Shown in pieces: positions 52,174-63,765 of a DNA stretch of 64,000 nucleotides. Every line of letters starts with the position of its first letter. Position 1 is the first letter of the stretch. Where the stretch lies: NCBI RefSeq assembly GCF_014696225.1, contig NZ_JACJPV010000016.1, positions 1 to 64,000 of the forward strand, written 5' to 3'. The translations under genes were made by a program, and so were the position numbers. Under the pieces are notes generated by a model. The model was given only the letters and a program-made list of their open reading frames with translations, was not told the DNA's origin and did no database searches. The stretch comes from Anabaena sp. FACHB-1237. Its GTDB lineage: Bacteria > Cyanobacteriota > Cyanobacteriia > Cyanobacteriales > Nostocaceae.

Positions 52174-53895
52174 ATGGCATTAGATTATTTTGCTCCTGGG
52201 GTGTATGTAGAAGAGATTGACCGTGGGAGTCGCCCCATTGAAGGCGTGAATATGAGTGTGGCAGGCTTCATTGGTTTTACCGAAGATGTAAAAGGTGATG
52301 CAGAACTATTCACACCCATTATGATCACTAATTGGGAGCAGTATTTAAAGTTTTTTGCTAAACCTGGTTCTGATGGATTTACTAATTTTAACGCTTATCT
52401 GCCTTTTGCCGTTAAGGGATGGTTTGATAATGGTGGTGGACGTTGTTGGATAACAAGTATTGGAACAGAATTACCAGGAACAGCTAAACCTTCAGAAGAT
52501 AAAATTGCTACTAAAGTATTAACCTCTGCCAGTAAACCTGCCTTAAAATTTAATATCAAATCAGATACATCAGCTATAGTAGCTGCTGGCGATAATCAAG
52601 AGACAAATGATCACAGTATTTCCCGACGCATTCAGGTAATTATCAGCGAAAGTACACCAACAATACCAGAAGGGTACACTGGCAAACCTCCTATGGATAG
52701 TGGTGAATACTTTAAGATTACTATTAAAGAAAACGGAGAAGAAAAAGGAACTTATGAACATCTTATTAACCAGGCCGCATCCACAGAATTTGGTACTTCA
52801 GTATTTGTAGCCTTGGCAGATAATGAATATGTAACAGTGGGTTTACCTGATAATGCGGTGACAGGTGGTTTATTAAGTTGCCGTCCTAAAAATGGTGAAT
52901 ACGTAGTTACATCAGCACCTTATATTACAGCCCAAGGGGATGAAGTCAGGGATTTACAGGGGCAAAAAGGCGATCGCAAAGGCGTACTAGGAAACTTTGA
53001 AGTAGACGAAATTGCCATGATTGCCTGTCCAGACTTAATGTTACTTTATCAAAAAGGTTATATAGACCTAGAACAAGTACATGGAGTGATGGAAGCGTTA
53101 ATTACTAACTGTGAAAATGCCTTTCCCGGTCCAGCTTTCCGTATGGTAGTATTAGATCCACCACCAGTAAAACCTGGTAAAAGTAATAAAGCAGTTACTC
53201 CCGACAAACAAACACCTCAAGATATTTTTGAGTGGTTAAAACAATTTAATCGTCGTTCTATGTTTGGTGCGCTTTACTATCCCTGGATTAAAGTGGCTAA
53301 TCCCAGAGACAAAGGTAATCCCATATCAGTACCTCCCTGTGGTCACATGATGGGTATTTGGTGTCGTACTGATGAAACTCGTGGTATTTTTAAAGCCCCA
53401 GCTAACGAAACTCCCAGAGGAGTATTAGGACTAGCTTACGAAACCAATATGCGGGAACAGCAACTACTAAATCCTGAAGGTATCAACTGTATCCGTAATT
53501 TCAGCACATACAGCAGGGGCTACAAAGTGTGGGGCGCACGTACCCTAGTAGAAAAAGACAACATTCAATGGCGTTATATTAGTGTGCGACGCTTAGTCAG
53601 CTACATTGAAAAATCCATTGAAATGGGAACACAATGGGTAGTATTTGAACCAAATGATCAGGATCTGTGGGAAAGAGTTAAACGAACCGTTAGTACATTC
53701 CTTACCAGAATGTGGAGAGAAGGTGCTTTATTTGGTGCGAGTGCAGAGGAAGCCTTTTACGTCAAATGTGATGGGGAATTAAACACTTATGATACCATGA
53801 TGATGGGACGTTTATATGTTGAAGTAGGAGTATCTCCAGTCAGACCTGCGGAATTTGTGATTTTCCGCGTAAGTCAATGGAATCCTAACGAATAA
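52174..53895 (+). CDS. contractile injection system tail sheath protein
   Basis: A 573-residue phage-type sheath subunit. The N-terminal start FAPGVYVEEIDRGSRPIEGV and the C-terminal region WRYISVRRLVSYIEKSIEMG continuing to LTRMWREGALFGAS are diagnostic. Sheath subunits assemble around the tube and contract to drive it through a membrane. Preceded by a clear AGGAG. It is the first gene of a row with tube proteins. The relatives I would expect are the cyanobacterial thylakoid-anchored CIS. Confidence 0.92.
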   Translation: MALDYFAPGVYVEEIDRGSRPIEGVNMSVAGFIGFTEDVKGDAELFTPIMITNWEQYLKFFAKPGSDGFTNFNAYLPFAVKGWFDNGGGRCWITSIGTELPGTAKPSEDKIATKVLTSASKPALKFNIKSDTSAIVAAGDNQETNDHSISRRIQVIISESTPTIPEGYTGKPPMDSGEYFKITIKENGEEKGTYEHLINQAASTEFGTSVFVALADNEYVTVGLPDNAVTGGLLSCRPKNGEYVVTSAPYITAQGDEVRDLQGQKGDRKGVLGNFEVDEIAMIACPDLMLLYQKGYIDLEQVHGVMEALITNCENAFPGPAFRMVVLDPPPVKPGKSNKAVTPDKQTPQDIFEWLKQFNRRSMFGALYYPWIKVANPRDKGNPISVPPCGHMMGIWCRTDETRGIFKAPANETPRGVLGLAYETNMREQQLLNPEGINCIRNFSTYSRGYKVWGARTLVEKDNIQWRYISVRRLVSYIEKSIEMGTQWVVFEPNDQDLWERVKRTVSTFLTRMWREGALFGASAEEAFYVKCDGELNTYDTMMMGRLYVEVGVSPVRPAEFVIFRVSQWNPNE

Positions 53896-54024: not shown

Positions 54025-54498
54025 ATGCCTGAATTAAAACCCATACCAACTAGTAGATTTTACGTTGAATTTGATGGAATTACCCAAAAACTAATCAAAA
54101 GTGTGACAGAAGTAAAATTCACAGGACAAACGGCAGGCCATGAAAAGCCCTTAGCTTCCACAAAAAGTGGTAAAACCCTGTGGCAAAGCACATCTTCTGG
54201 TTTTGAAGAAAACCCTAATGTTACCTTTGAAGCCTTTGTAGTGGAAGGTGACATGGATTTTTATAATTGGATGAAAGGGACAATGCCAAAAAGTGAAGGT
54301 GGTGATGGAAAATGGTCATCAAATCGCAAAAATGGCTCTATAGTGGCTTATGATTCTGAAGATCAAGAAATTTTGCGTTGGAACTTGACAAATTGCTGGA
54401 TTAAAACTTACAAAGTGAGTGATTTTTCATCAGAAAGCAAAGATTTAGCAGTAGAAACCTATGAAATAGTTGCCGAAGAAATTCTTCGAGTAATTTAA
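54025..54498 (+). CDS. CIS tail tube protein 1
   Basis: A 157-residue tube protein of the T4 gp19/Hcp-like fold: MPELKPIPTSRFYVEFDGI opens the first strand, the middle has GFEENPNVTFEAFV, and the end reads EEILRVI. The ribosome site AGAGGTG lies 5-10 nt upstream. It is followed by a same-length homologue. Confidence 0.9.
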   Translation: MPELKPIPTSRFYVEFDGITQKLIKSVTEVKFTGQTAGHEKPLASTKSGKTLWQSTSSGFEENPNVTFEAFVVEGDMDFYNWMKGTMPKSEGGDGKWSSNRKNGSIVAYDSEDQEILRWNLTNCWIKTYKVSDFSSESKDLAVETYEIVAEEILRVI

Positions 54499-54532: not shown

Positions 54533-55006
54533 ATGGCAAAGGGTGAAATTCTTGCTTGTTCCAAATATTATGTAGAAATAGACGGATTAACTGATTTAAT
54601 AGTTAAAAAAGTAAGTGGCGTTGCTACCACATTACAAACTACTGGTGATGCGAAATCCTATGGTGTAACCAAAGGTGGAAAAAGCGTCATTCAAGCAACA
54701 GTTACAGGTATAAGTAATGCCAAAATAACTGTAGATTTTGTAGCTACTGTTCAAGACAAACGCCTATATCAATGGTTTATAGACTCCCATTCTCAGGTTA
54801 GTGTAGGTGGAGGATCAAAAACTAAAGGAGAACGGAAAACAGGGTCAATAACTCTTTACAATCAAGGTGGAGAAGAAGCTGCAAGATGGAATTTAACAGG
54901 AATGATGCCCTCAAGTTATAAATCAACCAAATTAGAAGCAGGTGCAGAAGGTTTAACCACAGAAACAGTGGAATTTGTTTATGAAAGTTTGCATCGTGTC
55001 AAATAA
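54533..55006 (+). CDS. CIS tail tube protein 2
   Basis: A 157-residue homologue of the preceding tube protein (KYYVEIDGLTDLIVKKVSGV, then ARWNLTGMMPSSYKS near the end). The shared final motif ESLHRVK resembles EEILRVI. CIS clusters commonly have two or three tube paralogues, one forming the main tube and another the tip ring. Ribosome site AGGAGTG precedes. Confidence 0.9.
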   Translation: MAKGEILACSKYYVEIDGLTDLIVKKVSGVATTLQTTGDAKSYGVTKGGKSVIQATVTGISNAKITVDFVATVQDKRLYQWFIDSHSQVSVGGGSKTKGERKTGSITLYNQGGEEAARWNLTGMMPSSYKSTKLEAGAEGLTTETVEFVYESLHRVK

Positions 55007-55094: not shown

Positions 55095-55643
55095 TTGGCA
55101 AAAATTGAAAAACTACCAAAACTAAAATCTACCAAAATGGAAACAAAAAAACCCACATTTGAAGTTCTAACGGCCTGCCGTTTTTATTTAGAACTTAAAC
55201 TGCAAAATATTGCTGGTTCTAATGATGAAATAGATGGTTATTTCATGGAATGCCAAGGATTTCAACGTTCTCAAGAAGTGATAGAAATAGTGGAAGTTAC
55301 TCCTCAACAATGGGGTAAAAGTAAACAGGCAAAATTTGGCCGTGTAGTGCGGACAAAAATCCCTGGTAATTCCAAAAGTGATAACATTATCTTAAAACGG
55401 GGTTTAAGCATATCCCTATCAATCTGGAACTGGTTAAAAGAAGTGGAAGAGGGAAATTGGGCAAAACAAAAAAAAGATGGAGATTTAACTATTTATAATC
55501 AAGGTGCAGAAGAACAAGCTAGATTTAGATTTTTAGGAGGATGGCCAGTAAAATATAAACTTTCTGGAGTAAAAGCAGGAAGTAATGAATTTGAAATTGA
55601 AGAAATAGAATTGGCAGTTGATGAATTTATTAGAGTTAAATAG
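55095..55643 (+). CDS. CIS tube-family protein 3 (tube initiator-like)
   Basis: A 182-residue tube-fold protein with a longer N-terminus. It uses TTG at 55095 or the ATG at 55137 (METKKPTFEVL); neither has a clear ribosome site. FEVLTACRFYLELKLQNIAG starts the fold, and the end ELAVDEFIRVK matches its two neighbours. Placement after the two tubes suggests the tip or initiator ring, as for the third tube gene of related CIS. The role is inferred. Confidence 0.75.
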   Translation: MAKIEKLPKLKSTKMETKKPTFEVLTACRFYLELKLQNIAGSNDEIDGYFMECQGFQRSQEVIEIVEVTPQQWGKSKQAKFGRVVRTKIPGNSKSDNIILKRGLSISLSIWNWLKEVEEGNWAKQKKDGDLTIYNQGAEEQARFRFLGGWPVKYKLSGVKAGSNEFEIEEIELAVDEFIRVK

Positions 55644-55685: not shown

Positions 55686-56000
55686 ATGATCCAAACAGAA
55701 TTTGAATTTAACCTAATTAAAGGATATGTAGATAGTGATGGTAATATTCATCGTACAGGGATTATGAGACTATCAAGGGCAATGGATGAAATAATGCCCA
55801 TGCGTGATCCTAGAGTCAAATCTAACCCAGCTTATGCCACAGTAATTATACTTTCTCGTGTGATTGTTAAACTGGGAGCATTAGATGAAATTAACCCAGC
55901 AGTAATTGAAAATCTTTTTGCCGTAGACTTGAGTTACTTACAAAATTTCTATAGGCAAATAAATGGTTTAGATGAAAACAATAATCCCATTATTTCCTAA
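55686..56000 (+). CDS. CIS small tail-assembly protein A
   Basis: A 104-residue protein. FEFNLIKGYVDSDGNIHRTG, MDEIMPMRDPRVKSNPAYA, and ending FAVDLSYLQNFYRQIN. The DEI...RV...Y...YLQ pattern repeats in the next gene. Small proteins of this type occur between tube and baseplate genes in CIS clusters and may be assembly chaperones; not proven. Confidence 0.65.
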   Translation: MIQTEFEFNLIKGYVDSDGNIHRTGIMRLSRAMDEIMPMRDPRVKSNPAYATVIILSRVIVKLGALDEINPAVIENLFAVDLSYLQNFYRQINGLDENNNPIIS

Positions 56001-56035: not shown

Positions 56036-56386
56036 ATGATATGCACAGAAATTAATTTTACATTACCTCAAGGATTAATAAGTGAAAATAATCAAATTGA
56101 AAGACAGGGAAAAATTAGGGCAGCCACAGGAAAAGATGAGATAATAGTGCAAAAATATCATCAAGTGCAAGAATTTTCTGAATATGCCATATTTGTGATG
56201 TTATCCAGATTAATTAGTAATATAGGCAATATTTCGCCAATTACACCAATAATATTAGAACAACTGTTTTTACCAGACTTTAATTATTTGCAAAACCTCT
56301 ATTTACAAATGAATCAACCTAGTGGAAACTGGTTAAATGAGGGGGAGTATTTGGCTACCCCTTGTCACAATTATATCAAGAGGTAG
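56036..56386 (+). CDS. CIS small tail-assembly protein B (in-frame part)
   Basis: A 116-residue paralogue of the preceding protein (MICTEINFTLPQGLISENNQ; DEIIVQKYHQ; LSRLISNIGN; PDFNYLQNLYLQMNQ). The last residues after LNEG (EYLATPCHNYIKR) look random, and a coherent sequence continues in the -1 frame, so the frame may be shifted at the G run 56341-56345. If shifted, the product would be about 151 residues. Confidence 0.6.
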   Translation: MICTEINFTLPQGLISENNQIERQGKIRAATGKDEIIVQKYHQVQEFSEYAIFVMLSRLISNIGNISPITPIILEQLFLPDFNYLQNLYLQMNQPSGNWLNEGEYLATPCHNYIKR

Positions 56387-56490
56387 CCTTAATTGCCCTA
56401 TACTTTCATTGGTCCAGAGAAGATATTTTGAATTTAGAACATACAGAAAGACTACTCTGGGTAGAACAAATAAATAAACTACTTATTTAA
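56341..56490 (+). pseudogene. DUF6760-like segment in the -1 frame
   Basis: Read from 56341 the frame encodes GGVFGYPLSQLYQEVALIA, continuing LYFHWSREDILNLEHTERL and WVEQI to a stop at 56488-56490. The pattern G-V-F-G-Y-P-L, E-V-A, FHWSREDIL and L-E-H-T-E-R is that of DUF6760, a small protein in CIS clusters. It has no start of its own and begins right after a TGA at 56338. It could be reached by a -1 slip on GGGGG from the previous gene, or it may be the result of an indel. Confidence 0.6.
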
Positions 56491-56670
56491 TATTATTTAA
56501 TAACGTAAGTTGCCAGTTAGATAAAGTAGGGTGTGTCAGAATCTTAAAATTGGTAATTTTAGCCTAAATTATTCTGTCTGACGCACCCTACAGACCACAA
56601 AATATCCGAAAATTAATAACTAATTACTTGTCAATAATGTCAATAAACCCATCAACCACCCCATAATATT
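56491..56670. repeat. inverted repeat GTAGGGTGTGTCAGA/TCTGACGCACCCTAC
   Basis: The gap before the CHAT gene holds a hairpin with arms at about 56527-56541 and 56577-56592, related to the arms of MITE B. No gene. Any promoter for the giant gene must be here, but none is recognised. Confidence 0.55.
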
Positions 56671-59600
56671 ATGAATGTACCTCGAAAATCTTATCGTTAT
56701 TTATCTATTATTACCGCCATAATTGGCATAATTCCAGTTAGTATATTTGCCAATATATCACCAACAGTAGCACAAATTACCCCGGCGCAAGATCCTACAG
56801 GAACAATAGTTAATCCTCATGGTGACAGATTAGATATACAAGGGGGTACAAAATCAGGAGATGGGGTTAATTTATTTCATAGCTTTGAAAAGTTTAACCT
56901 TAATTCTGACCAAGTGGCTAACTTTCTTTCTAACCCACAAATTCGCAACATTTTAGGGAGAATAGTAGGAGGGGATCCTTCCTATATTAATGGTTTAATT
57001 CAAGTGACGGGGGGTAATAGTAACCTATTTCTAATGAACCCTTCTGGTTTTGTATTTGGCAGTAATGCTACATTAAATTTACCGGGTAGTTTCACAGCAA
57101 CCACAGCAAATAGTATAGGATTTGGTAATAGTTGGTTTAATGCTAGTGGCAATAACAATTATAATAACTTACTGGGAGATCCTAATGCTTTTGCCTTTAC
57201 AATGGCTAACCCAGGGGCAATAATTAATAGTGGAGATTTAGGAGTATTTTCTGGTAATAATATTAACTTATTAGGTGGTACAATTATTAATACTGGCACA
57301 ATTTCTACCCCAGGAGGAAATATTACATTAACTGCTGTTCCTGGACAAAATGTAGTGCGGATGAGTACCCCAGGAAATTTATTAAGCATAGATGTTAAAC
57401 CTATTGTACCTAATAGTAATTTACCAAATGAGTGGGTAATTCCTGTTCAAGACTTACCTTATTTATTAACTAATACCCATCCTAGTTTGAATGTAGGGGT
57501 AAAAAATACCAATGATGGTAATATTCAACTGACTAATTCTAATATTAATCTTCCCAAAGAAGCAGGAACGAATATAGTTTCTGGTAAGGTAGATGTATCT
57601 GGACAACAGGGCGGAAAAGTTGGTATTTTTGGGAATAAAGTAGTAGTAATTGGGGCAAATATTGACGCTTCTGGTAATAATGGAGGTGGTACAGTATTAA
57701 TAGGAGGGGACTTTCAAGGTAAAGGGACATTACCCAATTCTAAAATTACTGTGGTAGATGAAAATTCCACTATTAAAGTAGATTCTAAGAATATAGGTAA
57801 TGGGGGAAAAGCCATAGTTTGGGCAGATAATACTACTAGATTTAATGGTAAGATATCCGGACAAGGTGGAGTTAATGGTGGTAATGGTGCTTTTGCGGAA
57901 GTTTCAGGAAAAGAGAGTTTAATTTTTCAAGGTAATGTTAATTTATTAGCAGCACAGGGAACAAGGGGTACATTACTTTTAGATCCCAAAAATATTATTA
58001 TTGCTAATGGCGGACAAAATAATATAGGTAATAATGATAATCTTTTTTCTGATCAACAAAATATTGATGTTACATTTAAACCTAGTGCAGTTGTAAACGC
58101 TTTAGATAGTGCTAATTTAATCCTGCAAGCTAATACTGATATTACTGTTACTGATGCTATTGATAGTTCTGGAAATACTAATGCTGGTAACTTAACATTA
58201 CAAGCGGGACGTTCAATTCTGATTAATAATGATATTAAACTCAAGGGTAGTTTGTCAGCAACAGCAAATGATTCAGGTTCTAAAAATGGTCAAAGAGATT
58301 CTGGCAATGCTACGATTAACTTAGCAACTGGTAAAACAATTGATACTTCTGGCAATATTACCCTAGAATATGATACTAATACAAATATAGATCCCATGAA
58401 TTTATCAGGTGATCTTAAAGCTGGTAATGGTAAAATTAGTTTAAATAGTAAAACACAACCCATAACAGTTAGTAGCAATGTTATTAATGCAGGAGAAATA
58501 GAAGTTGTTAATAGTGGAGGTACAACTTTTAGTAATAGTATTAGTGTTGCTAAATTAACCCTGACAAACACTACAGGTACGGTTGCTTTCAATAATAATC
58601 TTAATGTTAACAATACTTTTACTACAACAAACCAACCTTACAATATTTCTTTTCTGGGTACAACTAATAATATTGCTGGTAATACCACATTTAATAACAC
58701 TGGAACATTAACTTTTACAGGTAATACTAACTTTTTAGGAGGAGTAAATACCAGTTCTGCATCAAATACAAACATCGCGGGTACAATTAATAGTAGCAAT
58801 GCTAATGTAACTTTAAAAAATGTGGAAGTTACTCAAGATGCTACAGTTAATAGTGCTAATGGAGATATTAATTTTAATGGAAATGTCAATAGTACCACTG
58901 GACAAAATCGTAATTTAACAGTTAATAGTGGTACAGGTAAAATCAGTTTTAATGCTAAAGTTGGTGATAGTACACCATTAGGAAATATATCGTTAACTGG
59001 GGATGAAATAGATGTTAGTGATACTGTGACAGCAATAGGAATTTTAACGGCTAATAGTACAGGAAATACTCTATTTAATAATGTTAATGCTGGTAGTTTA
59101 ATTACTGATGTTGGAGGTAAGATTCAATTAACTGGTAATATTACTACTACTGGAAGTCAAACCTATAATGATGTTGTTACTGTTGCTAATAATCCCAGTT
59201 TATCAGGTAATACTATTGCTTTTAATGAAACTGTAGATGGTAATAGCAATTTAACTGTAAATGCTGGTAGTGGAACACTCACTTTTACCAAAAATGTAGG
59301 AAGTTCTACACCTTTAACTAATTTAACTGCTAGTGGTAATAGTATAGATATCAAGGAAAATATTTCTACTTCTGCTGTTCAAACCTATAATAGTCCAGTA
59401 ACTATTTTCAAAAACCCCTCTACATTTACTGGAAATGGTATTATTTTTAACCATACTCTCACTGGTAATAATTTAGATTTTACTGCTAATACTGGTAGTA
59501 GCAATTTAACTTTTAGCAATATCGTTACCTTAGGAAGTTTAATCACTAATGGTACTGGAAATACAGAAATTAAAGCTAATATTAATACCGCAAATAGTCA

Positions 59601-62600
59601 AAACTATAATACGAATGTTACTGTTGTTAATAATCCCAGTTTATCAGGTAATGGTATTTTCCTAAATGGTACTGTAGATGGTAATAGCAATTTAACTGTA
59701 AATGCTGGTAGTGGAAATTTGACTTTTGTTGATGCAGTAGGAAATACTACAACTTTAGGCAATATTACTGCAAATGCTGGAGGTACAACCATTTTTAATA
59801 GTACCGTCAAAGCAGCAAGTTTATTTACTGATGCTAATGGTACAACTAAAATTAATGGAGATATTACAACTTCTGGGTTGCAAAATTATCAAGATATTAT
59901 TCTTATAGCTAATAATCCCACTTTAACAGCTAACAATAATAATATTAGTTTTGGCAATACTGTTAATGGTACTACCAACTTAACGCTTAATCCTGGTAAT
60001 GGTAATATTAATTTTATTAATACGGTTGGTGATAAATCTCCTTTAAATAATCTTACTATTAATGGTGCTGGTATAACTCAAATTAATGCCAATATTACCA
60101 CTAATGAAAGTCAAACTTATAATAATCAAGTTAATCTCAATGTTGATACCCAATTTACCACAGATGCCGATATTAATGGTACAGGAAGTGTATATTTCAA
60201 TAATACCTTAACAGGAAATAATCGTAATTTAACCATTAATGCGCCAGATGTCGAATTAAATGCTAGTTTAAATTTAGGCAGTGGTAATTTAGTTTTACAA
60301 CCTTCTACTACTGGTACACAGGTTACTATTGGTAATACTGATAATATTGGTGATTTTAATGTTAATAATAGTGAATTAGCTAATATTAATACTACTGGTA
60401 ATGTTACTATTGGTAAAGCTGATAATTTTATTAATATAGCTTCTAATAGTAGTCCAGTCAATTTAAGTTCTCAAGATTATAATATCAATGTTTTGGGTAA
60501 TATTGATATTTATGGTAATGTTTTTACTAAAAATAATCAAACCTATAATGGTGATATTTTACTCCGAGAAAATGCAACTTTAATGGGTAAAAATGTAAGG
60601 TTAAATGGTAATATTGACGCGGTAAATTCAGGTAAGTTTTTAACAGTTAATAGTCAAGGAATTACTACTTTAGGGAAAGATAATACTCAAAAAATAGGAA
60701 ATTCTACTGCTTTAGGTTCTCTCAATTTAACTGGTAATGGTACAACTATTATTAATAGTAGTGTTATCAATACTACTGATAAACAGGTTTATGATACTCC
60801 TGTAAAAATTGCTAGTGATACAGTTTTAAATAGTAGTAATAATGGTGATATTAGTTTTAATAATACTGTGGATAGTAATACTAGTCCTCAAAGTTTAACT
60901 GTGAATACTGGAGGAATAACCAGTTTTAATGGTTTGGTGGGTTCTGTAATGCCACTTTCTGCTTTAATTACTGATAATAATGGTACTACTGTGATGACTA
61001 CTACCAATATTGCTACCACAGGAAATCAAACCTATGGGGATAAGTTACTCTTAGGAAATAATATCATTTTAGAAAGTACAAATAGTGGTAATTTAACTTT
61101 TAATGGTACTGTTAACTCTCAAGGTATTGCCAGACACTTAACTTTAAATACTACAGGAATTAACCGTTTTAATAATGCAGTTGGTGGCAATAATGCTTTA
61201 GATTCTATTACTACTAATGCAGGAGGAATTACAGAAATTAATAATAATATTACTACCATTGGTGCTGATGGACAAACTTATAATGATATTGTGAAATTTA
61301 CTGGTAATTCTACTTTAAATACTAATGCTTTGAATTTTAATAATAATGTGACTGGTACAAATGTAACTTTAAATATTTTACCTTTAACCACAACTCAAAA
61401 TATTAGTTTAGGAGGTATAGGTAATGATAGTCCAGGAAATTTGGTGTTGAATAGTGCAGAAATGAATTTTATAGGTGATGGTTTTAAATCTATTACTTTT
61501 GCTACTGTTAATCATAGTGGTACTGTTAATTTAGCAGGTGATTTTAATTTAAAAAATCCTTTAATTTTGCGATCGCCTATTGGCACAGGAACAATCGCAG
61601 GTCATGGTAATATTAATGGTACAGGTGCGGCTAGTGTCTCTCTAAAAGCTAACCAAAATATCACCACAGGTAATATCACAACCCAAGGTCAACCTGTAGA
61701 AATTGTCACCCCTAATGGTAAAATAGAAACTGGCAATATTAAAACTAGTTCCACCAACGGAAATGGTGGTCAAGTTACTCTTCAAGCCTACAATAATATT
61801 GATACGAAGGACATTAATACTAGTGCAGTTAATGGTACAGGAGGAGAAGTTACCATTAGTGTCACACCGCGCAATATTCCAGAGGATCAATTAACGGAAG
61901 CAATATTGGCTACTGGTTCGGTTTCCACAGGCAATATTAACAGTTCTGGCAGTACAGGAGCAGATATTACTATAGAACCATTTTCTCTGTTAACCACTAA
62001 AAATATTAATACTGGTGGTACATTTGGTAAAGCTGGTAATGTAATTTTAGGACCAGGAAATCAAAACATTCAAATAGGATCAATTAACGCGGAAAGTTCA
62101 GGAAATAAAGGTGGTAATATTACTATTAGCTCACTAGTTTACTTCACAGCTAACGATACTTTTACATCTTTTAGTGGACAAATTGCTAGTATTTCTACTC
62201 TAGGATCTATAAGTAGTGGTACATTTAACCTTACTCATGGTGCTTCCGTTTTAGAAGTTGGTAATTTACCTCTAAACTTTTTAAGAAACCCCAAAGGAAG
62301 TGGTACAAAAGGGGCAATAATAGCTGGAGAAACCGTATTTGTTAATATGAATATTGCTGGTAATTTTACTGCTAAAAATGTGGATATTCTCAGTAAAGAA
62401 CCACCACCAAATGTTCCTAAAAATTCTGTAGATTCTATTAACATTCCCAGTAATTATGGAGAAAAATTAGAATATGCTGCTGATGCTGAGGCTAAGAGCA
62501 ATAGTGAATATGATACGTATTTTGGTAGAAAATCTGTACAATTATCTACTCAAGAAATCAAAAGACGTTTAGGAGAAGCTGGAGAAATTAGTGGATTAAA

Positions 62601-63765
62601 ACCAGGCATAATTTATGCACAGTTTCAAAGGAAAAATCAAAGTAAAGAATCGAAATTATCAGGTTTTAGACAAGATAGCGATGAATTAGAGTTGATTTTA
62701 ACTACTGCTGATGGCCAAGATATTACTTCAATTCCTACAGGGAAAACCAGAGCAGACATTAAAGAAATCAGAAAATTATATCGCAGAAAGGTGAATGATA
62801 ATGAAGCTGCTACCAGTAAAGAGGACTATAATACCAAATATAGCCAGGAGATGTATAACATCTTAATTAAACCAATTCTGGAACATTTACAAGCTAAAAA
62901 AATTGATACTTTAGTGTTTGTTATGGATACAGAATTACGCTCTTTACCCATAGCAGCAATTCATGATGGACAGGATTTTATTATTAATAAATATAAAATT
63001 GCCATTATTCCCAGTGCTTCTATTAGTTTACCAGAAAAACCACAATCTTTTGATAAAAATACGAAAATTATGGCCATGGGAGCATCAGAATTTAAAGATT
63101 CAGGTTTAGCTGAACTTCCCGCAGTACCAGGAGAATTAAAGGCAATTACTCATATCTGGAAATTGGGAGATACTAGCAAAAATTCTCCTAAAGATTCTCT
63201 CAGTTATCTCAATGAGAAGTTCACAGTGGAAAACTTTAAAAAACTGCGAGATTCCCAACAATTCCGCATCATTCATTTAGCAACTCATGGTAAATTTGCA
63301 GGTAGTTTAGATGAGTCTTACATTCAATTTTATGGTAATGAAAAGGTCAAATTACGTGAACTGGAAACCAAACTTGAGTTAAATAATTCACCCAAGGTAG
63401 ATTTAATGGTACTTAGTGCTTGTGAAACGGCTATAGCTAATGAACAAGCAGATATGGGTTTTGCCGGGGTTGCAGTAGCATCAGGTGTTAATTCTGTAGT
63501 GGCTACTTTGTGGTCTGTGAGCGATCCTAGCACCTTTGCTTTAATGGTTAGTTTTTACAAAAATTTACAATCTCAGCCAAAAGCGGAAGCTTTAAGACAA
63601 GCACAGTATGATATGAGTCAAGGAAATATCAGATTTGAAAATGGTTATTTAGTAATTAACAATTATAAAGAGGAGTTACCAGAAGAATTAAAAAAATTAG
63701 GAGATATGGATTTTAAACATCCTTATTACTGGAGTGCTTTTACTTTGATAGGTAATTTCTGGTAG
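56671..63765 (+). CDS. giant secreted haemagglutinin-type protein with C-terminal CHAT protease domain
   Basis: A 2364-residue protein. A signal peptide (about 1-36, ending TVAQ) is followed by the TPS/filamentous haemagglutinin N-terminal domain (about 40-290; GDPSYINGLIQVTGGNSNLF, NPSGFVFG), used for two-partner secretion. A long Asn/Thr/Gly-rich beta-helix (about 290-1900) contains near-repeat blocks. A linker and the CHAT domain follow, with catalytic H2206 (HLATHGK) and C2251 (LSACETA). CHAT proteases are caspase-like. The CHAT end HPYYWSAFTLIGNF is intact. The TpsB pore is not in view. Confidence 0.9.
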   Translation: MNVPRKSYRYLSIITAIIGIIPVSIFANISPTVAQITPAQDPTGTIVNPHGDRLDIQGGTKSGDGVNLFHSFEKFNLNSDQVANFLSNPQIRNILGRIVGGDPSYINGLIQVTGGNSNLFLMNPSGFVFGSNATLNLPGSFTATTANSIGFGNSWFNASGNNNYNNLLGDPNAFAFTMANPGAIINSGDLGVFSGNNINLLGGTIINTGTISTPGGNITLTAVPGQNVVRMSTPGNLLSIDVKPIVPNSNLPNEWVIPVQDLPYLLTNTHPSLNVGVKNTNDGNIQLTNSNINLPKEAGTNIVSGKVDVSGQQGGKVGIFGNKVVVIGANIDASGNNGGGTVLIGGDFQGKGTLPNSKITVVDENSTIKVDSKNIGNGGKAIVWADNTTRFNGKISGQGGVNGGNGAFAEVSGKESLIFQGNVNLLAAQGTRGTLLLDPKNIIIANGGQNNIGNNDNLFSDQQNIDVTFKPSAVVNALDSANLILQANTDITVTDAIDSSGNTNAGNLTLQAGRSILINNDIKLKGSLSATANDSGSKNGQRDSGNATINLATGKTIDTSGNITLEYDTNTNIDPMNLSGDLKAGNGKISLNSKTQPITVSSNVINAGEIEVVNSGGTTFSNSISVAKLTLTNTTGTVAFNNNLNVNNTFTTTNQPYNISFLGTTNNIAGNTTFNNTGTLTFTGNTNFLGGVNTSSASNTNIAGTINSSNANVTLKNVEVTQDATVNSANGDINFNGNVNSTTGQNRNLTVNSGTGKISFNAKVGDSTPLGNISLTGDEIDVSDTVTAIGILTANSTGNTLFNNVNAGSLITDVGGKIQLTGNITTTGSQTYNDVVTVANNPSLSGNTIAFNETVDGNSNLTVNAGSGTLTFTKNVGSSTPLTNLTASGNSIDIKENISTSAVQTYNSPVTIFKNPSTFTGNGIIFNHTLTGNNLDFTANTGSSNLTFSNIVTLGSLITNGTGNTEIKANINTANSQNYNTNVTVVNNPSLSGNGIFLNGTVDGNSNLTVNAGSGNLTFVDAVGNTTTLGNITANAGGTTIFNSTVKAASLFTDANGTTKINGDITTSGLQNYQDIILIANNPTLTANNNNISFGNTVNGTTNLTLNPGNGNINFINTVGDKSPLNNLTINGAGITQINANITTNESQTYNNQVNLNVDTQFTTDADINGTGSVYFNNTLTGNNRNLTINAPDVELNASLNLGSGNLVLQPSTTGTQVTIGNTDNIGDFNVNNSELANINTTGNVTIGKADNFINIASNSSPVNLSSQDYNINVLGNIDIYGNVFTKNNQTYNGDILLRENATLMGKNVRLNGNIDAVNSGKFLTVNSQGITTLGKDNTQKIGNSTALGSLNLTGNGTTIINSSVINTTDKQVYDTPVKIASDTVLNSSNNGDISFNNTVDSNTSPQSLTVNTGGITSFNGLVGSVMPLSALITDNNGTTVMTTTNIATTGNQTYGDKLLLGNNIILESTNSGNLTFNGTVNSQGIARHLTLNTTGINRFNNAVGGNNALDSITTNAGGITEINNNITTIGADGQTYNDIVKFTGNSTLNTNALNFNNNVTGTNVTLNILPLTTTQNISLGGIGNDSPGNLVLNSAEMNFIGDGFKSITFATVNHSGTVNLAGDFNLKNPLILRSPIGTGTIAGHGNINGTGAASVSLKANQNITTGNITTQGQPVEIVTPNGKIETGNIKTSSTNGNGGQVTLQAYNNIDTKDINTSAVNGTGGEVTISVTPRNIPEDQLTEAILATGSVSTGNINSSGSTGADITIEPFSLLTTKNINTGGTFGKAGNVILGPGNQNIQIGSINAESSGNKGGNITISSLVYFTANDTFTSFSGQIASISTLGSISSGTFNLTHGASVLEVGNLPLNFLRNPKGSGTKGAIIAGETVFVNMNIAGNFTAKNVDILSKEPPPNVPKNSVDSINIPSNYGEKLEYAADAEAKSNSEYDTYFGRKSVQLSTQEIKRRLGEAGEISGLKPGIIYAQFQRKNQSKESKLSGFRQDSDELELILTTADGQDITSIPTGKTRADIKEIRKLYRRKVNDNEAATSKEDYNTKYSQEMYNILIKPILEHLQAKKIDTLVFVMDTELRSLPIAAIHDGQDFIINKYKIAIIPSASISLPEKPQSFDKNTKIMAMGASEFKDSGLAELPAVPGELKAITHIWKLGDTSKNSPKDSLSYLNEKFTVENFKKLRDSQQFRIIHLATHGKFAGSLDESYIQFYGNEKVKLRELETKLELNNSPKVDLMVLSACETAIANEQADMGFAGVAVASGVNSVVATLWSVSDPSTFALMVSFYKNLQSQPKAEALRQAQYDMSQGNIRFENGYLVINNYKEELPEELKKLGDMDFKHPYYWSAFTLIGNFW
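59192..59282. repeat. internal DNA repeat, unit 1
   Basis: About 90 bp within the CHAT gene starting AATCCCAGTTTATCAGGTAA. It recurs at 59631-59721 with most positions identical, including GTAGATGGTAATAGCAATTT. It reflects duplication of a beta-helix segment. Confidence 0.75.
59631..59721. repeat. internal DNA repeat, unit 2
   Basis: Second copy of the block at 59192, 439 bp later, with the reading frame kept, as expected of beta-helix expansion by duplication. Confidence 0.75.

Follow-up and report, generated by a model that had tools for sequence, protein, structure and literature searches.

A probable programmed -1 ribosomal frameshift extends a tail-assembly-chaperone-like protein with DUF6760 in a contractile injection system of Anabaena

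The chaperone gene of a contractile injection system (CIS) in Anabaena sp. FACHB-1237 is very probably read by programmed -1 ribosomal frameshifting, judging from sequence comparison, which would yield a 116-residue chaperone and a 151-residue chaperone-DUF6760 fusion. In the mechanism we propose, most ribosomes would translate positions 56036-56386 of the window (the whole stretch of 64,000 nucleotides that was analysed) and release the 116-residue chaperone, while a fraction would be delayed at the heptamer G_GGG_GAG by a hairpin 5 nt downstream. An internal Shine-Dalgarno (SD)-like element would add to this delay in most relatives. Delayed ribosomes would then slip back by one base and translate to position 56490, thereby appending DUF6760 to give the 151-residue fusion. 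By analogy with E/E+E' of phage P2 and G/GT of phage lambda, the short form may coat the tape-measure protein and the long form may recruit tube subunits. The CIS genes and signal elements of the window are all on the + strand.

The window contains the sheath and tube part of a CIS. The cluster begins with a contractile sheath protein of 573 aa (52174-53895; Phage_sheath_1C E=7e-19, Phage_sheath_1 E=7e-11), followed by two inner tube proteins of 157 aa each (54025-54498, Phage_T4_gp19 E=2e-21; 54533-55006, Phage_T4_gp19 E=5e-19 and TIGR02241 at 61.5 of 62.4 bits) and a third gp19-type protein of 182 aa, a tube or tube-adaptor protein (55095-55643; Phage_T4_gp19 E=5e-26, TIGR02241 over cut-off, CIS5_fam E=4e-10 and below cut-off). 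Two chaperone-like genes come next, and directly 3' of the CIS genes lies a 2364-aa haemagglutinin-like repeat protein with an apparent C-terminal CHAT protease domain (56671-63765). No tape-measure gene was found in the window 3' of the chaperone/DUF6760 gene, which counts against the frameshift reading. Just 3' of the DUF6760 stop, an imperfect inverted repeat is visible by eye at 56526-56591 (GTAGGGTGTGTCAGAAT ... ATTCTGTCTGACGCACCCTAC), perhaps a terminator or small mobile repeat; a repeat search for arms of at least 12 nt between 56480 and 56680 returned none.

Baseplate_J and gp25 have their sole matches in the genome on a different contig, G000:C5, where a second CIS cluster (77049-95521; L248, L249) contains AAA ATPase-, tube-, LysM-, VgrG- and PAAR-like genes identified by eye; the CIS of this genome is thus split across contigs. 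Between the tube gene and the LysM gene of that second cluster, positions 90538-92538 encode a protein of 666 aa that is rich in short tandem repeats and is a candidate only for the tape measure. Complete CIS clusters with the chaperone/DUF6760 pair inside them occur in Nostoc sp. UHCC 0926 (L245) and Rhodococcus sp. WB1 (L241).

The gene at 56036-56386 encodes a tail-assembly-chaperone-like protein of 116 aa, whose C-terminal end, EYLATPCHNYIKR, is encoded through the hairpin; its TAG stop (56384-56386) lies inside the hairpin. The protein scores below the cut-off of PF10109, the family of P2 gpE and Mu gp41 (E=0.14, 12.7 bits against 25), with E=0.0082 as the best value among 10 of its relatives, and it has no match to PHROG 508 (tail assembly chaperone). 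Immediately upstream is a tandem paralogue of 104 aa (55686-56000) that does match PHROG 508 (E=2e-4), shares 36% identity with the 116-aa protein and lacks a frameshift extension. The pair, of which only the second gene has the extension, is kept in relatives, and the first paralogue could supply a constant short form. Neither this paralogue nor the downstream hairpin figured in the first-pass annotation.

In the -1 frame, a TGA at 56338-56340 closes the reading frame just 5' of the slip site, and from the G5 run to the TAA at 56488-56490 the frame encodes GGVFGYPLSQLYQEVALIALYFHWSREDILNLEHTERLLWVEQINKLLI. The extension (56344-56490, 48 residues after the slip) belongs to PF20546 (DUF6760), scoring 37 bits against a cut-off of 27 (E=3.7e-9). 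It also resembles PF06528 (Phage_P2_GpE), below that family's cut-off (E=6.7e-4, 19.5 bits against 23), and matches PHROG 1756 weakly (E=0.009). No ATG, GTG or TTG precedes the domain in this frame; the first TTG, at 56362, is inside it. The same is seen widely: 127 of 191 loci have no such codon in the DUF frame from the upstream stop to the Tyr of GYP, and a further 42 have one only upstream, within the overlap with the chaperone gene. The first codon after the G run is GTC, GTA, ATC, ATT or ATA in most loci. Public annotation gives DUF6760 a variety of starts, namely ATT (L238), TTG inside the domain (L241), GTG (L243) and ATA (L245). The domain is present in 122 of 193 genomes sampled from the window's family, in 102 of 293 from its order and in 27 of 291 from its phylum; for the phyla of other genomes the figures are 15/247 (that of Methanosarcina), 81/189 (that of a Myxococcales) and 22/251 (that of an Anaerolineales).

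The two frames meet at the slippery heptamer G_GGG_GAG (56341-56347), which contains the G5 run 56341-56345. GGGGGAA is among the motifs reported in annotated phage chaperone frameshifts, and G:U pairing would permit re-pairing of the second tRNA (PMC10885494). Counting against the frameshift reading, re-pairing of the A-site tRNA-Glu on GGA would be poor, with a central G-U. The first-pass annotation had placed the 116-residue gene, the G5 run and a start-less -1 DUF6760 frame here, and its coordinates proved exact to the base; its proposal that a P-site tRNA on GGG 56342-56344 re-pairs on 56341-56343 also agrees with our arithmetic (103 + 48 = 151 residues).

We compared 271 distinct DUF6760 loci, from which identical contexts had been removed; many come from related genomes, so the counts are not independent events. 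The slip site and the frame relation recur in 256 of them, spanning Cyanobacteriota, Myxococcota, Chloroflexota, Actinomycetota, Bacillota, Pseudomonadota, Nitrospirota and Archaea. A run of G5 (223 loci), G6 (11), G7 (15) or G8 (1) is present in 250, so that the comparison of the run in related genomes suggested by the first-pass annotation found it conserved. The other six, all archaeal (the five haloarchaea L262-L266, and L274), have GGGAAAT in its place with the same frame relation, which in the haloarchaea can be read as the canonical G_GGA_AAT. In 251 of the 256 loci the zero frame stays open for 80 codons or more, and in 234 it stops no more than 15 nt past the run. Alignment of the chaperone, DUF6760 and fused proteins leaves the Gly at the slip as the sole invariant column. 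In one Methanosarcina metagenome-assembled genome (L208) the run is G4 instead of the G5 of its relatives, probably through an assembly error or a mutation. As far as sequence can tell, then, a conserved slip site joins two conserved frames, the second of which has no start, an arrangement expected of a programmed -1 frameshift.

Downstream of the heptamer, the predicted hairpin has its 5' arm, GGCTACCCCTTG, at 56353-56364 and its 3' arm, CAAGAGGTAGCC, at 56377-56388, separated by a 12-nt loop (56365-56376). It begins 5 nt past the heptamer in the window and about 5-6 nt past it in relatives. Its folding energy is -16.8 kcal/mol (z=-4.0), and none of 200 shuffled sequences was as stable. Covariation was assessed from an ungapped alignment and pair counts for 65 diverse sequences, with 500 shuffles: 95.6% of cells were paired, 31 cells had double changes compared with 3.9 in shuffles, and no shuffle reached the observed score, which was lost when the arms were slid.

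The arms also encode protein (GYPL in the 5' arm, QEVA in the 3' arm), and codon choice within them follows the pairing. Tyr is TAC in 158 of 164 cases (39% in the background of chaperone genes), Glu is GAG in 162 of 164 (36%) and Val is GTA in 155 of 164 (19%), and six changes of TAC to TAT are accompanied by a change of Val to Ile (ATA) in the partner arm. To control for protein sequence, each of 115 representatives was given 100 synonymous recodings. Native hairpins had a mean z of -3.5 relative to their recodings (-2.8 for the window), and 92% of the representatives were beaten by five or fewer of the 100. A group of Chloroflexota with TYAT in place of GYPL has a different stem sequence of up to 12 bp in the same place. 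The hairpin is not universal, since neither L239 nor two of the three haloarchaeal representatives, which are from unrelated lineages, stood out in the synonymous test. Covariation and the synonymous control together argue that a downstream structure is present at the 5-9 nt spacing from the slip site expected of a frameshift signal.

A third element lies upstream. Pairing energies with the anti-Shine-Dalgarno sequence show a sharp optimum 8-18 nt 5' of the G run. A strong SD-like site is present there in 198 of 256 loci; for a control stretch displaced upstream by another 30 nt the count is 36 of 256. The corresponding stretch of the window (56320-56327) is weak, at -3.3 kcal/mol, whereas most relatives have a strong one, and this weakness counts against the frameshift reading for the window.

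Some genomes encode chaperone and DUF6760 as one continuous open reading frame of 151-153 residues. These are a Planktothricoides and a related Oscillatoriales genome (L121/L123/L150 and L122/L149), and L124 from another family. The G5 run is lost in every one of them; the hairpin pairing is lost in L124, and much of it is kept in the others. That such fusions occur in nature indicates that the fused protein is a viable product. The first-pass annotation had held that relatives with an unshifted frame would speak against it; such relatives do exist (L121/L123, L122, L124), yet because the G5 run is gone in them, and in one the hairpin pairing too, they favor the fusion. An AlphaFold model of the L121 protein (pLDDT 75.6) has a chaperone-like domain, a flexible linker and three helices, with lower confidence in the linker and the DUF6760 part. 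Its fold is matched by Mu FS-gp41 (probability 0.96), the tape measure chaperone of phage Mica (1.00) and T4-like baseplate hub assembly proteins in BFVD (E=1.5e-4); the top PDB match, the HK97 chaperone, is not significant (E=0.19). The same L121 protein matches PHROG 508 with E=1.3e-3. In viral contigs L229-L236, the DUF6760-like domains lack the G run and the hairpin, and several lie in long open frames. A tblastn search of the fused protein against 50,697 phage records gave no match.

Tail chaperones with frameshifted forms are familiar from phages, whose chaperones do not stay in the finished particle, and the analogy made in the first-pass annotation survives as regards a short and a long form, with a different phage as the closest counterpart. 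In phage P2 (AF063097) the E gene yields E and, by an annotated -1 frameshift, E+E'. As in P2, the window has a small chaperone gene close to the genes for sheath and tube, and a -1 frameshift would append to its product a domain of some 50 aa that lacks a start of its own. P2 E' and DUF6760 share a motif of the form FHW...L...E...W and both match PF06528 and PHROG 1756, and it is because DUF6760 resembles the E' domain that we prefer P2 gpE/gpE+E' over lambda gpG/gpGT as the analogue. The systems differ in several respects. P2 slips on T_TTT_TTG; the site here is G_GGG_GAR, accompanied by a conserved hairpin and in most cases by an SD-like element. P2 gpE clears the PF10109 cut-off well, and the window's chaperone is below it. 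Here the genes belong to a domesticated injection system with a second chaperone gene in tandem. The P2-type order has the frameshifted chaperone gene directly 5' of the tape-measure gene; the next gene in the window is the haemagglutinin/CHAT-like one, and the 666-aa repeat protein of the second CIS cluster is a tape-measure candidate only. Since the window's proteins score below the PF10109 and PF06528 cut-offs, our claim is that the pair works like P2 gpE/gpE+E', not that it is one.

A lambda-type gpT was the relative considered before P2 E' and was set aside in favor of it. We know of no resemblance between the lambda T domain and DUF6760. Short and frameshifted long chaperone forms would be shared with lambda and other tailed phages, although gpG/gpGT are phage genes for non-contractile tails; in lambda the two forms are made at about 30:1 (PMC5009743). 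The -1 signal of E. coli dnaX combines an internal SD, a slippery sequence and a downstream hairpin (PMC5600365), the same three-part layout as here, but its slip site is A_AAA_AAG and the shift gives a truncated product instead of a longer one. T4-like tail assembly chaperones, with whose hub assembly proteins the predicted L121 fold agrees, use a mechanism other than frameshifting, going by the title of Vladimirov et al. (2022) as cited in PMC13222765.

The first-pass annotation had left an indel as the alternative to a programmed frameshift; we take this to cover a sequencing or assembly error as well as a frameshift mutation recently acquired by a single genome. In its favor, the run is a homopolymer, and the G4 of L208 could be just such an error; nevertheless an indel is refuted on comparative grounds, the identical run and frame relation being found in 250 distinct loci that include finished plasmids and chromosomes. 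Substitutions that separate the window from its nearest relatives moreover fall mostly at third codon positions of the DUF frame (6, 1 and 21 at positions one to three for L039). We therefore regard an indel as highly improbable, and the conserved run together with the covarying hairpin favors the programmed frameshift. Stuttering of RNA polymerase on the G run, giving mRNAs with varying numbers of G, seems to us just as hard to credit. It would suit a homopolymer that reaches G8 in one relative, but the haloarchaeal GGGAAAT is no homopolymer, and such slippage has no need of a conserved hairpin or SD-like element. A run of five G is also short for polymerase slippage.

A separate DUF6760 protein, made by SD-like-coupled termination and reinitiation at a non-canonical start (ATT, ATA, GTC) just past the G run, is a less remote alternative, though we still think it unlikely. 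The SD-like element upstream in most relatives would fit, as would the ATT, ATA, TTG or GTG starts assigned by public annotation, the GTG in a GTGA overlap with the zero-frame stop in Streptomyces and some Chloroflexota, and the ATG overlapping that stop in the archaeal L267. Against it, 127 of the 191 loci have no canonical start, the position of the SD-like element 7-18 nt before the run puts it at a distance of at least about 15 nt from any start codon of this kind, and the zero-frame stop of the window is some 40 nt downstream of the run. Reinitiation would also leave the invariant G run, the hairpin and the in-frame fusions unexplained. A DUF6760 gene with its own start, named by the first-pass annotation as a finding that would overturn it, was accordingly rejected as a general explanation, most loci having no usable start: it holds for L267, is possible in Streptomyces and some Chloroflexota, where as in L267 reinitiation is a possible, minor rival, and fails in the window. 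For the window, programmed frameshifting is the reading that we prefer.

With moderate confidence we propose more broadly that a three-part frameshift signal of ancient origin, spread widely by transfer, determines the proportions of the two chaperone forms in bacterial and archaeal CIS and so controls the assembly or length of the tube. DUF6760 would be a tube-recruiting extension of the P2 E' kind, the archaeal loci would represent a programmed chromosomal -1 frameshift in Archaea, and haloarchaea would have retained the frames but switched to G_GGA_AAT as the slip site. Among open-licence papers, beyond which a subscription paper may exist, none was found that mentions DUF6760 or that joins extracellular contractile injection with ribosomal frameshifting. 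A broader open-licence search likewise found no paper on CIS frameshifting by title, abstract or passages. Term searches of a paper on the thylakoid-anchored CIS and one on Streptomyces CIS structures returned no chaperone, and an eCIS survey has "chaperone" in two places only, one being a tail-fibre chaperone, and "frameshift" in none. Where CIS papers were searched for them, neither a tail assembly chaperone nor a frameshift came up. Frameshifted chaperones are known from phages, and we found no report of them for CIS in the open-licence literature.

CIS have drawn attention as weapons, as mediators of programmed cell death and as tools for delivery, and how their tubes are started and measured to length is poorly known. 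If the frameshift is conserved, the annotated gene set of many CIS would be wrong, with DUF6760 listed separately or missed, and the junction peptide would be one that CIS proteomics has never looked for. The signal could be compared between bacterial and archaeal ribosomes, and it would provide a direct test of whether the G/GT or E/E+E' mechanism of phages still operates in CIS.
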